The notes beneath the pieces are model-generated. The model was not told the origin of the DNA, did not search any database, and saw only the letters and a program-made list of their open reading frames with translations. Shown here piece by piece: positions 23,243-43,424 of a stretch of 64,000 bases of DNA. Origin of the DNA: Oscillospiraceae bacterium (GTDB lineage: Bacteria; Bacillota; Clostridia; Oscillospirales; SIG627); NCBI GenBank assembly GCA_015065085.1, contig SVQW01000001.1, positions 168,258 to 232,257 of the forward strand, read 5' to 3'. A program made the position numbers and the translations under genes. Position 1 is the stretch's first letter. Every line of letters starts with the position of its first letter.

Positions 23243-23492
23243 GGCTGTGTGCTCCTGTCTTGAAATTTTGAGGTATGCTATATTATAATACACAAGCCGC
23301 TCAAAAGTAACTGATGAATTTATGGCACACAGGACATTTTTTTCCTCTGTGCATATTATATAACAAAACTTTCACGAATGCAATAGCTTCACAAAATAAA
23401 TTCTACAATATATATGAAATTTTGCAGATTGTCAAACTTGTACAAGAAAAACAAAAATATTAATGCAAAATGACAAACGTGCTCATAAACGG

Positions 23493-23521: not shown

Positions 23522-23588
23522 ATATACAACAATGGTTGACTGTACATTTTTTCGGTCAACCGGAAAAAATTTTAAAGGAGAAACACAT

Positions 23589-26500
23589 ATGAACCGCAAA
23601 CTCACATTTTTAACAGTGCTGATGGTTATCGTTGCAATTTTCGCGGTAACATCAATGGTTCTTGCTGACGAGCTTCTTCCCGTAAACATTACAGCAGAAG
23701 AAGTATATGTCGGAAGCGCAGATACCGTTCTTTCAGTAGAAGCTCCGGAGGAAGCCACTATCCAGTGGTTTAAAGAAGTATACGGAAGCGGCGTAACTGC
23801 ACAGCCTATCGCAGGAGCTACAGCTGCTGACTATACCCTCACTGCAGACGATACTGCAAAAGTGGGTCTTAATCTTTTCTATGCAACAGTAAACGGCGCT
23901 AAGTCCGAACTTATCAAGATTACTGTTGTTAAGGCACCTTATGTATACACCAAGGATCCTGCAATTTTCCGCTTTGACAGTGAAACAAAGATGAACGACC
24001 ATACCGGTAGCGCAGCGAATAGCGAAAAATCAATTGCGACATTGGATGACGGTAAAAAAGTTTTAATGGTTAAACATACCACCGGAAGTAATGACGTTAA
24101 CGTTTATTTCACTAACCTTGCTGTCCCTGTAGCTGATTATAAAATCGCTGTTTACAAAGTTATGCCTATGATTGAAGGTAGCAGAAGCGTAGTTTTGTAT
24201 CCCACCTACGATGATAAAAATGGAGCTTACAATCCCGGTAGCGGATATTTCCAAAAGAATCTTGGTTATACCGGCGCAAATGGTCAGTGGCAGTACATCG
24301 TAGATGAAGATATCAAACATCTTGACGGCGGTGTCATGAGTGACGGTTTCCCTAATGGTCCCGTTTTATTCAACGGCGGTCGTTTTGACTACTACAACGA
24401 TTCTCCCGGAGTTGGCTCTGTAATGTACATTGAGAGCGTTATGTTCTTTGCAACTCAGCAGGACTGCGATGAATACATTGCAAAGGACAGCGCAAATAAT
24501 GTACCGGAACAGCCCGACAACCTTGACATGGTTGCATGGGAATTCAAGAACGACCCTGCATTTGCGGCAACATTCCTTCCCGATACAGATGTTACCGACG
24601 GCGCAAATCTTAAGGCAGGTGTAAAGACAACCACTTCTCTGATGTCCAGAAATAAGTTCGACCTTGATATGTACTCCGTAGTAAAGGTTCTTGGCGCAGA
24701 CGAAGGAACCGTAACATTCTTTGACGGAGAAACAGAGCTCGGTAAAATAAACCTTGCAGAGGGAAATGTTGCAAACTTCAGCAATAAAGCAGATTTCCCC
24801 AACTGGAAGGGTGAATTTACCAATCTCAAGATCGAAGCAAGCCAGGACATGACAGTAACAGCGATTGCGTTCTTTGTAAGCGAAGAAAATGCAAAGCTTT
24901 ACACAGCAAAGGCATATTTCTGTGACGAGTGCGGACAGGCACCTTGTGTTTGCCCCACAAAGCCTTTGAAGTATGAAGACGCAATTTGGTGGAACTTTGC
25001 AGATACCTGGACCACCGATAATATGTCTCCCGTTAACGCAAGTGTTGACTATGTTGGCGTAACCGACGAGGATATAGCACATGGAAAATACACTGCAAAA
25101 GCAGATGGAGAAATTAAGCTTGAATACAATGAAGTGAACATGAAAGCTGCGCATAAGCTTGACACAGCAGAGTATCCGTTCATAAAGATAGGATATAAGT
25201 ACAGCGGTGCAGCTCCTGCCAAGGCATATATTAAATTCACAACTGATCGTAGTGCAGCAACTGTTAACTTTGATCTGGTAAAGACAGATGTAGATAACAA
25301 GGGCTATGATGTAATATCCCTGGATTTCTCTTCTCTTACCTCTCTCCAAGCAATAGATGATGCTGTAACTGATGAATTCCGCGGAGCGCTTGATAAATTT
25401 GAATTCGGAATAGTTGACGCCAAAGCAGGCGACGTGCTTGATATGGCGTACATACTCTTCTTCAAAGACGACGGACAGGCAAATGAATTCAAAGGCGAAC
25501 AGAAGTTGCCTCCTCAGACCTTTATCCCTGCATCTTGGGCGGTAAAAGATACAATTAAGAATGAGTATGTAACTCTTGCTGATCTCGACATGACAGCTGA
25601 TAATATTGAGTTCAAAATAGAAGATTATAGCCGAATCTCCAGAATCACTCTTAATGAGCTCAAGAAATATCACGCAAACAAAGTAATCAGCATACTTGGA
25701 AACGGCTATAAGTATCAGTTTAATACTAGCCATGTAAAGCCTGAACTTAAGACTTGGTACTATGACCTTGATGCATATTTTGCAGCAGGCTTCTCCGGTG
25801 ACGTTTACCGTGAAACCATCAAGGAACTTATTACCGAAGGCGAATACATTGTAGGTGTACATTTCGTACATAAGTTCGTAAAGAACACCGACTTCCCGTT
25901 TGTTGGTAAGTTAATACTCGACATGCCCGAAGAGCTTGAAGGCAAGTATCTCGACGTATACAAGTATGATCCCAGAACCAACACGGTAGCAATTACCGAA
26001 AGAGCACCTGTAAAAGAAGGAAAAGTTTCTATCGGCACGCTCGGCGGTGATATCGCGATAGTAAACAGTGGCTATCAGCCTACTGCAGAAGAAATCGCAC
26101 GTGCGGAAGCATATGAGACTTATGAAAACACCGCATGGGATGTTAAGCTGTATGACTTCGGTGCAGATGCCGACAGCAAGCTTACCTACAAGGCGAACAA
26201 TGCAATAGTAGAAACCCTGACAGAAAACGGTGTCACCTTCAAGAGAGCAACCTCTGCCTCTACCACCAGAATTGAGTCGGTATTCACATTTACTGAAACC
26301 TTTGAAGCATCCGAATATCCTGTAATGGTAATCAAGTATAAGACCAGCGGCAACTACAGCACATCAGCTGCAAACTACGTTTCCACTGATTTCTATACAG
26401 CAGATACCACCAGAGGATATACTTGGCTCGGCGGCTACTCGTACTATAGCACAGGTTCCATATTCGAAAAGAGCACCGGCTGGAAGACCAGGGTGATCAA

Positions 26501-27326
26501 TTACACCAACCTTGAAAGCATGAAAGCATCCGGACTTGGAGTAAGCGAAGAATGGAATGAAGCTCCCGGTTCGAAGAGAAGTGGCGGACAGGCATTCCCG
26601 TTCAAGGGTAACATGGTTGCATACCGTCTTGACTTCAGCACAGGCGCAGCCGGAGTAAGCGTTGATATGGCATACATAGCATTCTTCAAGACAGAAGAAG
26701 AGGCTAGAAAGTATGTTGAAGCAAGAACCAAGATTGAAGAGTATGAAAACGCAGAAGCTAAAGCTGCAGAAGAAGCAGCTAAGGGACCCAAGCCCGCTTA
26801 CATTGTTTTCGACTTCCTTGATAAGAACGAAACCGCAAAGTTTACACTGCATCCCGGTAGCGACTCTTTCCCTGTAAAGACTGAAACCAAGAACACAGCA
26901 GAAGGTTTCTGGTCCAAGGACGCAGACGGTGAGTACAACCTTACAAGAAGCCTTAGCGATGATGAGCAGTTCAGCCTCAAGGATTACCCTGTACTCAAGA
27001 TAAAAGCTAAGCCCTCCATGTCTGGTGTAAACAGCCAGTTCTATGTATGGCAGGATAACCAGAGCGGTAACCCCAGAGTTGATTTCCCCTTTGCGACCGC
27101 AAATGAGTGGAATGAACTGATTCTCGATTACTCATCCGCTTCAATGGCAAGCGGAACATGGGACGGAACCCTGACCAAGTTCAGATTCGACCCCATGAGA
27201 ACTGCAAAAGAAAGAGAAATCATAATCGAGTACATCGGATTCTTCGAATCTGTTGAAGCTGCGGAAGCATTCACAAGTGTTGCGGATGCAAAAGCGGCTG
27301 AAAAGGCAGCAGCTAAAAAGAAATAA
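23589..27326 (+). CDS. Large secreted protein with five diverged beta-sandwich-type repeats
   Basis: A 1245-residue protein with a clear signal peptide ending near MVLADE, after an AAAGGAG site. An Ig-like region (about 30-115) precedes five repeats that each open with an aromatic-x-Phe motif (IFRFDS, WEFKND, WWNFAD, LYDFGAD, VFDFLD) and close with an FF motif followed by an acidic helix (MFFATQQD, AFFVSEEN, ILFFKDD, IAFFKTEE, IGFFESVE). Repeat ends lie near residues 290, 435, 632, 1040 and 1225. A unique region of about 220 residues separates repeats 3 and 4. A Cys motif CDECGQAPCVCP is near residue 444. There is no LPXTG, SLH or membrane tail, so it is released or held non-covalently. No family was recognised; carbohydrate binding is a guess from the fold-like pattern. 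Confidence 0.8.
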   Translation: MNRKLTFLTVLMVIVAIFAVTSMVLADELLPVNITAEEVYVGSADTVLSVEAPEEATIQWFKEVYGSGVTAQPIAGATAADYTLTADDTAKVGLNLFYATVNGAKSELIKITVVKAPYVYTKDPAIFRFDSETKMNDHTGSAANSEKSIATLDDGKKVLMVKHTTGSNDVNVYFTNLAVPVADYKIAVYKVMPMIEGSRSVVLYPTYDDKNGAYNPGSGYFQKNLGYTGANGQWQYIVDEDIKHLDGGVMSDGFPNGPVLFNGGRFDYYNDSPGVGSVMYIESVMFFATQQDCDEYIAKDSANNVPEQPDNLDMVAWEFKNDPAFAATFLPDTDVTDGANLKAGVKTTTSLMSRNKFDLDMYSVVKVLGADEGTVTFFDGETELGKINLAEGNVANFSNKADFPNWKGEFTNLKIEASQDMTVTAIAFFVSEENAKLYTAKAYFCDECGQAPCVCPTKPLKYEDAIWWNFADTWTTDNMSPVNASVDYVGVTDEDIAHGKYTAKADGEIKLEYNEVNMKAAHKLDTAEYPFIKIGYKYSGAAPAKAYIKFTTDRSAATVNFDLVKTDVDNKGYDVISLDFSSLTSLQAIDDAVTDEFRGALDKFEFGIVDAKAGDVLDMAYILFFKDDGQANEFKGEQKLPPQTFIPASWAVKDTIKNEYVTLADLDMTADNIEFKIEDYSRISRITLNELKKYHANKVISILGNGYKYQFNTSHVKPELKTWYYDLDAYFAAGFSGDVYRETIKELITEGEYIVGVHFVHKFVKNTDFPFVGKLILDMPEELEGKYLDVYKYDPRTNTVAITERAPVKEGKVSIGTLGGDIAIVNSGYQPTAEEIARAEAYETYENTAWDVKLYDFGADADSKLTYKANNAIVETLTENGVTFKRATSASTTRIESVFTFTETFEASEYPVMVIKYKTSGNYSTSAANYVSTDFYTADTTRGYTWLGGYSYYSTGSIFEKSTGWKTRVINYTNLESMKASGLGVSEEWNEAPGSKRSGGQAFPFKGNMVAYRLDFSTGAAGVSVDMAYIAFFKTEEEARKYVEARTKIEEYENAEAKAAEEAAKGPKPAYIVFDFLDKNETAKFTLHPGSDSFPVKTETKNTAEGFWSKDADGEYNLTRSLSDDEQFSLKDYPVLKIKAKPSMSGVNSQFYVWQDNQSGNPRVDFPFATANEWNELILDYSSASMASGTWDGTLTKFRFDPMRTAKEREIIIEYIGFFESVEAAEAFTSVADAKAAEKAAAKKK

Positions 27327-27337
27327 TCTGATAACAA

Positions 27338-27367
27338 AAAGAAGCAGGTCGTATGACCTGCTTCTTT
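27338..27367 (+). terminator. Terminator of the secreted-protein gene
   Basis: AAAGAAGCAGGTC-GTAT-GACCTGCTTCTTTT, a perfect 13-bp stem with a T tract. Its core is repeated in inverted form in the next hairpin. Confidence 0.92.
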
Positions 27368-27393
27368 TATATATTATCTGAATTTATTTAATT

Positions 27394-39851: not shown

Positions 39852-42800
39852 TTAGTTGTACAATTCGCCCAGCTTGGTGAGTCTGTCGTACTTTTCTTTA
39901 GCATATCCAACAGCTTCGTCAAACAGCTTGTCCGCCTTTTCGGGGAAAGAGCGTGTAAGAGCGCTGTAACGGGTTTCGCCGAGAATGAAGTCTTTGTAGG
40001 ACTCGGTAGGCTCCTTGGAGTCGAGAGTAAATTTGCCCTCGGTAGCAGCGGGGTTGAATCTGAAGTTGTGCCAGTAACCTGCCGCAACGGCCTTCTTGGT
40101 TTCGTTCATGCTGGTACCCATGGACTTCATACCGTGGTTGATACAAGGAGCATAAGCGATAACAATGGAAGGACCTGCGTAGTTTTCTGCTTCAACAAAT
40201 GCCTTGATACACTGGTTGTAGTCAGCGCCCATTGCAACCTGAGCAACGTAAACATAACCGTAAGACATTGCTATAGCTGCAAGGTCTTTCTTCTTCATAA
40301 CCTTACCGGAAGCAGCGAACTGTGCGATAGAACCGGTAGGAGTTGCCTTGGAAGCCTGACCGCCGGTGTTGGAGTAAACCTCGGTGTCGAATACGAGAAT
40401 ATTGATGTCAAGACCGGAAGCAAGAGCGTGGTCAACACCGCCGAAGCCGATGTCGTATGCCCAACCATCACCGCCGAAGATCCAGATGCTCTTCTTGATG
40501 AAGAGGTCTTTTCTTGCGAGAGCTTCCTTAACAGCCTTGCCGAGATCGCAGCAGGGGCAAGCTTTGCAAGCTTCAAGAGCAGCGGTAAGAGAAACAGCGG
40601 CAGCCTTGGAAGCAGCGGCATCATCCTTGCCTGCAAGCCATGCATTGCAAGCGTCTTTAAGAGCAGCATCAGCTTCGTCATTTGCAGCAATAGCAGTGAG
40701 AAGCTCTACCAGCTTTTCACGGCGCTGTGCAACAGCCAGAGCCATACCAAGACCGTACTCTGCGTTATCTTCGAACAGGGAGTTAGCCCAAGCAGGACCT
40801 TTTCCTTCTTTGTTGGTGGTATAGGGGGTAGCAGGTGCAGAACCGCCCCAGATAGAAGAACAACCGGTAGCGTTTGCGATATACATTCTGTCGCCGAACA
40901 GCTGAGTAACAAGCTTTGCGTAAGGAGTTTCGCCGCATCCGGGGCAAGCACCGGAGAATTCGAGCAGAGGCTGCTTGAACTGGCTGCCCTTAACGGTGGT
41001 TTCCTTGAACTTGGCATTGATTTCGTCGTTGTCAGCAAATTTGTAAGATTCTGCGAAGTACTTCTGCTGGTCAAGCTGAGAAGCGATAGGCTTCATAACG
41101 AGAGCTTTTTCGCCCTTCTTGCCGGGACATACCTGAGAGCAGGAGCCGCAACCGGTACAGTCAAGCGCAGAAACGGTAACACCAAACTGGTATCCGGGCA
41201 TACCTGTCATGGGAACCAGCTTCATTCCTTCGGGAACAACTTCGCCGTCCTTTACAGCAACGGGGCGGATAGCGGCGTGAGGGCAAACCAGAGAACAGAA
41301 GTTACACTGGATACAGTTGGTGAAGTTCCATTCGGGAACGTCAACTGCGATACCGCGCTTTTCGTAAGCCGCAGAGCCCTGAGGGAACAGACCGTCAGCG
41401 TCCTTAACGAAGGTGGAAACGGGCAGGAAGTCACCCTTCTGAGCATTGACGGGATTGAGTATTTTTTCAACAAATTCAACAAGCTCGGGTCTGCCGGAGA
41501 TAGCGCCCTTGTCGGAAGCTTCGTCCTGAGCATTTGCCCATTCGGGCTTAACCTGAATTTCAACAAGGTTTGCAATACCCTTGTCAACAGCCTGCTGGTT
41601 CATGGAAACGATAGCTTCGCCCTTCTTGGAGAAGGATTTAACAATAGCCGCCTTCATGTAATCAACAGCCTCTTCCAGAGGAATGATGTTAGCCAGCTTG
41701 AAGAATGCTGCCTGAAGAACCATGGAGAACTTGTCTCTCAGACCCAGGTCACGCGCGATGTTTACACCGTCGATGGTGTAGAACTTAGCCTTCTTGGTTG
41801 CAAGGTCTCTCTTGATCTTTGCAGGGAGATATTTTTCTACTTCTTCGGGAGACCAGATGGTGTTCAGAAGGAATGTGCCGCCTTCTTCAAGATCTGCGGT
41901 TATGTCATATTTATTAACATAAGATGCATTGTGGCATCCGATGAAGTTTGCCTTGGAAACGTAATAGGTGGAGCGGATGGGGCTGTCACCGAAACGCAGA
42001 TGAGAAATGGTTATACCGCCGGACTTTTTGGAGTCGTAGGCGAAATAAGCCTGAACATATTTGTCAGTGTGGTCACCGATGATCTTGATGGAATTCTTGT
42101 TAGCACCGACGGTACCGTCAGATCCCAGACCCCAGAATTTGCAGGAGATTGTTCCGGCGGGAGAGGTGTTGGGGCTTTCCTTAACTTCGAGAGAAAGGCT
42201 GGTAACGTCATCGTTGATGCTGAGGGTGAACATGGTCTTGGGCTGATCTGCATCAAGGTTTCTGTATGCAGCAATGATGTCAGCGGGAGTGGTATCCTTG
42301 GAGCCCAGACCGTAACGGCCGCCGATAACAAGAGCATTTTCGAACTTGGTACCGCGCAGAGCGTTAACAACGTCAAGATAGAGAGGCTCAGCCAGAGCAC
42401 CGGGTTCTTTGGTTCTGTCGAGAACTGCAATCTTCTTAACGGTAGCGGGGATTTCACTGAGCATGTGGGAAACGGAGAAGGGACGGTAAAGTCTTACTTT
42501 GAGAAGACCTACCTTTTCACCCTTAGCGTTGAGGTAGTCGATAGTTTCTTCAATGGTATCACATACGGAACCCATAGCAACAAGGATCTTGTCTGCATCG
42601 GGAGCACCGTAGTAGTTGAAAGGCTTGTAGTTGGTGCCGATTTTTGCGTTAACCTGGTTCATATAGTCAACAACAATCTCGGGAACTGCATTGTAATAAG
42701 TGTTGCATGCCTCGCGTGCCTGGAAGAAAATGTCGGGGTTCTGAGCTGTACCCTTGAGGGTGGGATGATCGGGGTTGAGAGAACGCTGGCGGAATGCTTC

Positions 42801-43400
42801 AACAGCATCCATATCAACCATTTCAGCCAGATCGTCATAATCCCATACTTCAATCTTCTGGATTTCGTGGCTGGTTCTGAAGCCATCGAAGAAGTGCAGG
42901 AAGGGAACTCTGCCCTTGATAGCACTCAGATGAGCAACAGCGCCAAGGTCCATAACTTCCTGAACGTTGTTAGCGCACAGCATAGCAAAGCCGGTCTGAC
43001 GGCATGCCATAACGTCACTGTGATCTCCGAAGATGGAGAGTGCGTGAGAAGCCAGTGCGCGTGCGGAACAATGGATAACACCGGGGAGAAGCTCACCGGC
43101 AATCTTGTACATGTTGGGAATCATGAGCAGCAAGCCCTGAGATGCTGTGTAAGTTGTGGTCAGAGCGCCTGCGGAAAGGGAGCCGTGAACGGTACCTGCG
43201 GCACCTGCCTCGGACTGCATTTCCATGATTTTGACTTCCTGGCCGAAAATGTTCTTTCTGCCTTCACTGGACCATTTATCGGTTACTTCCGCCATTACGG
43301 ACGAGGGAGTAATAGGATAAATGCCGGCAACTTCGGTAAATGCATACGATACATGAGCCGCAGCATTATTACCGTCCATGGTAATTTTCTTTCTTGCCAT
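39852..43400 (-). CDS. nifJ: Pyruvate:ferredoxin (flavodoxin) oxidoreductase
   Basis: A 1182-residue single-chain PFOR that converts pyruvate and CoA to acetyl-CoA, CO2 and reduced ferredoxin, the core step of anaerobic fermentation. The N-terminal GIYPITPSSVMAE binds the substrate side. Two ferredoxin-type clusters have CIQCNFCSLVCP near residue 697 and CTGCGSCSQVCP near 745. The proximal cluster begins with CPGCGETPY near 817. The thiamine diphosphate site has GGDGWAYDIGFGG near 975. Length and order are normal. It is monocistronic with a strong GGAGG site. Codon usage is strongly biased, giving a long open frame on the other strand. Confidence 0.98.
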   Translation of the reverse strand: MARKKITMDGNNAAAHVSYAFTEVAGIYPITPSSVMAEVTDKWSSEGRKNIFGQEVKIMEMQSEAGAAGTVHGSLSAGALTTTYTASQGLLLMIPNMYKIAGELLPGVIHCSARALASHALSIFGDHSDVMACRQTGFAMLCANNVQEVMDLGAVAHLSAIKGRVPFLHFFDGFRTSHEIQKIEVWDYDDLAEMVDMDAVEAFRQRSLNPDHPTLKGTAQNPDIFFQAREACNTYYNAVPEIVVDYMNQVNAKIGTNYKPFNYYGAPDADKILVAMGSVCDTIEETIDYLNAKGEKVGLLKVRLYRPFSVSHMLSEIPATVKKIAVLDRTKEPGALAEPLYLDVVNALRGTKFENALVIGGRYGLGSKDTTPADIIAAYRNLDADQPKTMFTLSINDDVTSLSLEVKESPNTSPAGTISCKFWGLGSDGTVGANKNSIKIIGDHTDKYVQAYFAYDSKKSGGITISHLRFGDSPIRSTYYVSKANFIGCHNASYVNKYDITADLEEGGTFLLNTIWSPEEVEKYLPAKIKRDLATKKAKFYTIDGVNIARDLGLRDKFSMVLQAAFFKLANIIPLEEAVDYMKAAIVKSFSKKGEAIVSMNQQAVDKGIANLVEIQVKPEWANAQDEASDKGAISGRPELVEFVEKILNPVNAQKGDFLPVSTFVKDADGLFPQGSAAYEKRGIAVDVPEWNFTNCIQCNFCSLVCPHAAIRPVAVKDGEVVPEGMKLVPMTGMPGYQFGVTVSALDCTGCGSCSQVCPGKKGEKALVMKPIASQLDQQKYFAESYKFADNDEINAKFKETTVKGSQFKQPLLEFSGACPGCGETPYAKLVTQLFGDRMYIANATGCSSIWGGSAPATPYTTNKEGKGPAWANSLFEDNAEYGLGMALAVAQRREKLVELLTAIAANDEADAALKDACNAWLAGKDDAAASKAAAVSLTAALEACKACPCCDLGKAVKEALARKDLFIKKSIWIFGGDGWAYDIGFGGVDHALASGLDINILVFDTEVYSNTGGQASKATPTGSIAQFAASGKVMKKKDLAAIAMSYGYVYVAQVAMGADYNQCIKAFVEAENYAGPSIVIAYAPCINHGMKSMGTSMNETKKAVAAGYWHNFRFNPAATEGKFTLDSKEPTESYKDFILGETRYSALTRSFPEKADKLFDEAVGYAKEKYDRLTKLGELYN

Positions 43401-43424
43401 TTAAAGTATCCTCCTTAAATATGA

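Follow-up and report, generated by a model that had tools for sequence, protein, structure and literature searches.

A five-module secreted protein of an Oscillospiraceae bacterium and the shuffled module family to which it belongs

Introduction

What might a bacterium do with a long secreted chain that is made of diverged repeats and carries no recognised enzyme or anchor? The question is raised by a gene at 23589-27326 of the window, by which we mean the whole 64,000-nucleotide stretch of DNA analysed here. The original prediction, made from the sequence alone, singled out its 1245-residue product as an unclassified repeat protein. Here we describe the gene and its domains, the family of modules from which it is built, the predicted fold of one module, and the readings of its function that these observations favour.

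Results

Gene structure and expression signals

The gene has its own promoter, ribosome site and terminator, as follows.

23589-27326, + strand: whole gene, an open reading frame encoding a secreted protein of 1245 aa
23493-23521, + strand: sigma-70-type promoter, TTGACA and TATATT spaced by 17 nt, with TG before the -10; 11 of 12 consensus matches
23534-23561, + strand: hairpin in the 5' UTR, 9-bp stem, -13.2 kcal/mol
23574-23580, + strand: ribosome-binding site AAAGGAG, 8 nt before the ATG
27337-27368, + strand: strong intrinsic terminator, 14-bp stem and T run

An alternative in-frame ATG at 23463, giving 1287 aa, was rejected because the extension would contain both the promoter and the ribosome site, which are downstream of that ATG. 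The strong promoter, 5' hairpin and strong ribosome site that had been predicted are all present, although the hairpin has a modest advantage over shuffled sequences (11/200, z -1.69); it is real yet unremarkable. Counting both strands, the 64-kb window holds 14 sites as good as this promoter. The codon adaptation of the gene is 0.58 (reference EF-Tu, EF-G and S7), third among the 34 window genes tested and near the 0.61 of rpoC, so the earlier guess of an abundant product is a reasonable one. Good expression is plausible from codon usage and promoter together.

Elsewhere in the window, 39852-43418 holds two very long overlapping antisense open reading frames (1182 aa on the minus strand, 1116 aa on the plus strand), only one of which is likely to be a gene.

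Domain layout of the protein

The chain is laid out as follows, with all features on the + strand.

23589-23666, +: signal peptide, aa 1-26; hydropathy peak 2.75 at aa 7, cleavage inferred near VLA|DE
23676-23939, +: N-terminal domain, aa 30-117, also in the ortholog (25%) and closest paralog (76%); 'Ig-like' unproven
23961-24476, +: module 1, aa 125-296 (HMM), clustering with modules of L018
24531-24902, +: module 2, aa 315-438, degenerate; HMM match limited to the C-terminal third
24921-24953, +: CxxC...CxC linker, aa 445-455, CDECGQAPCVC, identical in the closest paralog
24984-25490, +: module 3, aa 466-634 (HMM), vertically inherited
25500-26138, +: conserved 'insert' domain, aa 638-850
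26148-26714, +: module 4, aa 854-1042 (HMM), vertically inherited
26802-27272, +: module 5, aa 1072-1228 (HMM; AlphaFold2 beta-sandwich), missing in the ortholog
27279-27323, +: Ala/Lys/Glu tail without an anchor

The mature protein has a computed pI of 4.7 and a mass of about 135 kDa. The 1245-aa sequence contains no second hydrophobic stretch or transmembrane segment after the signal peptide, no LPXTG or other C-terminal sorting signal, and no SLH triplet or other cell-wall anchor. These observations agree with the earlier description of a secreted protein without an anchor, and on sequence grounds the protein is an unanchored secreted one with an evident secretion signal. Across its whole length neither Pfam nor the genome's list of dockerins yielded a dockerin or cohesin, and library searches recognised no enzyme domain. 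The N-terminal domain gave no match in Pfam, and the 'Ig-like' label that it had been given is left without Pfam support.

Five repeats of one module family

The protein contains five diverged copies of one module of about 155 aa. Similarity among the five units is weak by BLAST (best E 6e-7, units 3 and 4) and most pairs within the protein are too diverged for it, so that pairwise comparison alone would miss the family. A profile HMM was made from modules elsewhere in the genome, excluding both the protein studied here and its closest paralog. It recovers all five units with independent E-values of 1e-15, 6e-5, 4e-13, 6e-16 and 3e-39, in order along the chain; module 2 scored 1.4e-3 in another profile run. 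The whole-set profile found zero matches among 3696 shuffled or reversed sequences. Chance repetition is ruled out by the leave-out HMM and these controls.

The opening aromatic-x-Phe and closing FF-acidic motifs noticed at the outset proved to be genuine family signatures. A module begins with [WFY]-x-F-[DN], continues with Y-P-[YFVW] and W-x-G and then R-[FLI]-D, and ends with [IV]-[ED]-x-[IV]-[GA]-F-F-x-[TSD]-x-x-[ED]-A-x-x-[YF]; the second F of the closing FF is conserved in 126 of 133 module sequences. The predicted count of five also holds by the profile, although no more than the last third of unit 2 is retained; by this evidence all five copies belong to a single module family, four of them complete and one degenerate.

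Searches of sequence libraries and the literature

The whole protein had no match by sequence in Pfam, NCBIfam or the PDB. Nor did any of 28 module members score above the curated cut-off of a Pfam CBM model. One of the 28 matches Agarase_CBM (PF17992) weakly (E 5e-4); the only other matches, likewise weak, were a phage baseplate megatron at E 0.028 and an S-layer protein (9rpl) at E 0.93. A named family was rejected on this basis, neither the whole protein nor its modules having a library match beyond these weak ones. Viral contigs and phage records scanned with the module contained no relative, and a scan of genome contigs gave a single one, which is explained by the scarcity of conserved stretches in the modules. 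We found no description of the module in the literature. The statement that no known domain name applies thus stands as far as sequence libraries go, but it missed that the module is common to a genome-wide paralogous family.

Predicted fold of module 5

Module 5 was modelled with AlphaFold2 from an alignment of only 5 sequences. The model is an all-beta sandwich of ten strands with a C-terminal helix (pLDDT 72.5, pTM 0.74). A Foldseek search of the PDB with this model gave 63 matches below 1e-3, led by a xylanase CBM (4qpw, E 2e-5) and CBM11 (E 6e-5), with CBM30, CBM29, CBM35, CBM86 and CBM4 further down. These CBM matches are at the level of fold (TM about 0.35-0.52, rmsd 5-12 A, identity 7-18%). 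The list also includes non-sugar beta-sandwiches such as ciliary proteins and Cry toxins, and tail or fibre proteins are frequent among the named viral structures that matched. The comparison with CBM and jelly-roll families that had been proposed was thus positive at fold level for module 5, with the sequence libraries silent, and the model supports a CBM-type fold without membership of any named CBM family.

A sandwich of so generic a fold could instead be a packing or spacer domain of a surface layer or matrix, engaged with protein and having no sugar ligand. The weak S-layer match and the many strongly diverged tandem copies are in keeping with such a role. We consider it unlikely, since the fold matches are rich in CBMs and the module has glycoside hydrolase and esterase partners in other genomes (see below).

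Ortholog, closest paralog and module shuffling

A sister species of the same genus (G001) has a syntenic ortholog of 1056 aa (L082:5606-8776), which has mecA, udg and metK as neighbours, just as the window gene does. Its domains are collinear with those described here and include the same insert, but it ends after module 4 and lacks module 5. Identity is highest in the insert (40%) and is 26-36% in modules 1-4. In the module tree, module 3 groups with its counterparts in the ortholog and paralog (support 0.99) and module 4 with that of the ortholog (0.94). Module 1 joins the modules of L018 (0.77), and module 5 joins a module of an SLH/GDSL protein (0.71, within a wider clade of 0.92). Since modules 1 and 5 cluster with the modules of other proteins, they seem to be replacements or additions. 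By these placements the chain is a shuffled mosaic in which modules 3 and 4 are inherited.

The closest paralog (L016:4031-7741, G000:C17) matches the gene's DNA at about 90-98% identity across most of nt 361-1350. It diverges after that stretch, and past aa 637 it switches to BspA LRR, Big_2 and half a dockerin, a pattern suggestive of gene conversion or recombination in the recent past.

The insert domain

The insert had been called unique, which is true within this genome, where it occurs once and has no second copy, but no other segment is as well conserved between the two orthologs, and related domains occur in the neighbouring genus g3 (L121-L125). There it is the C-terminal domain of proteins of 1200-2400 aa with different repeats and makeup. 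Searches of Pfam and the PDB gave no match of note, and the AlphaFold2 model has a pLDDT of 39. In this bacterial family the domain may serve in sorting or assembly. Its conservation, stronger than that of the modules, would also fit an undescribed enzyme for which the repeats serve as substrate-targeting modules. We regard this as very improbable, given the lack of a Pfam or PDB match of note and its C-terminal place in giant proteins of other makeup, where it looks structural or sorting-related.

The module family in this genome

A protein search of the genome gave 41 matching places, which rules out an orphan protein, and a profile of 28 modules gave 103 matches at E 1e-5. Iteration on the fetched open reading frames raised this to at least 123 modules in 42 open reading frames, two of which end at a contig or fetched-region boundary. 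The 42 together amount to 53,010 aa, or about 6.5% of the 2.45-Mb assembly. SLH anchors are present in 21 of the 42. Other Pfam partners of the module in the genome are GDSL lipase, DUF4434 (weak), BspA LRR, Big_2, List_Bact_rpt, cohesin, dockerin, CotH and LamG.

Several of these siblings deserve description in their own right. One of 1910 aa (L018:3488-9220, G000:C10) has seven modules, Big_2, List_Bact_rpt, cohesin and dockerin in one chain. A small cohesin/dockerin system may exist in the genome, because it has 8 dockerin matches. Many SLH siblings have a part that resembles a TIM barrel, is scarcely recognised by Pfam and is inferred to be an enzyme. In L019, L020, L022, L023, L028 and L031 it is a common C-terminal region after the SLH repeats, with the motifs DEPG, CTDIYPL and EFWCCIQ and at best a weak DUF4434 match; it is a candidate for an undescribed glycoside hydrolase family. 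Three giant proteins of 2600 aa (L069, L070 and L072; G000:C1, C11 and C6) carry five modules and LamG, and by eye the C-terminus of L069 is metallophosphatase-like.

A further sibling (L032:9229-11181, G000:C19:19228-21180) is a prophage tail-type protein that ends in a module after a beta-roll. Its cluster contains, by eye, portal-like, capsid-like, holin-like, amidase and repressor genes, and the module is possibly a host-derived receptor-binding tip.

This phage arrangement bears on where the ligand may lie. The modules could bind the cell's own wall or capsule glycan and so retain the protein at the surface without SLH or LPXTG, as a coat or matrix protein. A phage tip is expected to bind the host surface, and the module forms the C-terminal end of a tail-type protein encoded beside a portal-like gene and an amidase. 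The sister species, despite having few modules in its genome, also conserves the gene studied here in a syntenic position, and the insert rather than the modules is the gene's best-conserved part. On the other side, half of the family's open reading frames are SLH-anchored, which would make a second surface binder needless; modules elsewhere adjoin sugar-acting enzymes; and binders of external polysaccharide are found on phage tails too. Binding to the cell's own glycan thus seems to us a serious possibility but an improbable one. Less probable again is the wider proposal that the whole lineage-specific, shuffled CBM-like family targets the cell's own surface glycan, as a retention and assembly system parallel to SLH that is shared by the prophage tail tip and has the five-module protein as one conserved core part.

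Distribution in other genomes

The module is patchy outside this genome. There were 8 matches in a genome of the same genus, and of 20 genomes from elsewhere in the taxonomic family 1 had the module. In the sample of the order, 17 of 245 genomes carry it, some of them matching at 14 or more places, and in that of the phylum 3 of about 398 others do. Single modules elsewhere adjoin GH130 (L111), GH106 (L128), a dockerin (L113) and GDSL with CBM_4_9 (L117). Such carbohydrate-active partners are seen in other genomes and none is found in the protein itself.

In a metagenome-assembled genome of the planctomycete Thermoguttaceae, one gene (L065:5923-8238, JAQVKF010000053.1) has one module and a faded SLH. 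Its C-terminus is the enzyme-like part common to the clostridial SLH siblings and its contig neighbours are of planctomycete type. This combination points to a likely horizontal transfer between phyla.

Discussion

Multivalent glycan binding is the best reading of a chain that carries CBM-type modules and no recognised enzyme, and with fold, ligand and multivalency all predicted we hold it somewhat probable that the protein is a secreted, non-catalytic, multivalent binder of external or matrix glycans. Each repeat would be a CBM-type beta-sandwich module. The copies, spaced along the chain around a conserved central domain, would attach to one polysaccharide at several points simultaneously, thereby bridging or coating it. 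On this view the protein is an unanchored member, lacking any recognised enzyme domain, of a large shuffled family whose siblings pair the module with SLH, enzyme-like parts or LRR. We count in favour of glycan binding the membership of all five units in one module family, the CBM-heavy fold matches, the weak Agarase_CBM match of one module, the GH130, GH106, GDSL and dockerin partners and the absence of a recognised enzyme domain; against it we count that the fold matches are loose and include non-sugar sandwiches, and that the model rests on 5 sequences. As to which glycan, the enzyme partners hint at external sugars and the prophage tail-type protein hints at the envelope.

The module is not covered by Pfam or NCBIfam, although its fold and partners are of a known kind, that of CBM-like accessory modules; more unusual is the scale of its expansion, by which one species devotes such a share of its genome to module-carrying proteins while the module is patchy elsewhere, including a single planctomycete. 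With the module defined, many large secreted proteins of Clostridia-like genomes that are now 'hypothetical' could be annotated, and a new CBM family may result. Proteins that carry a single module next to a known enzyme partner are direct routes to the ligand.

Comparison with known systems

With the beta-sandwich CBMs (CBM11, CBM29, CBM30, CBM35, CBM86, CBM4 and that of 4qpw) the module shares an all-beta sandwich of similar size and an accessory, often tandem, arrangement, being joined to carbohydrate-active domains in other genomes. It differs from them in having no sequence match above cut-off, in its C-terminal signature of FF and acidic helix, and in that its glycan ligand is putative. 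The likeness to Agarase_CBM is confined to the single matching member, which is not module 5, and an agarase domain was not found here. As in the SLH-anchored multimodular surface proteins of Clostridia, sibling open reading frames pair the module with SLH repeats, whereas both SLH and a recognised enzyme are missing from the protein described here. From cellulosome-type proteins it differs in having neither dockerin nor cohesin, in a genome with few dockerin matches, while its sibling L018 resembles them in combining seven modules with both.
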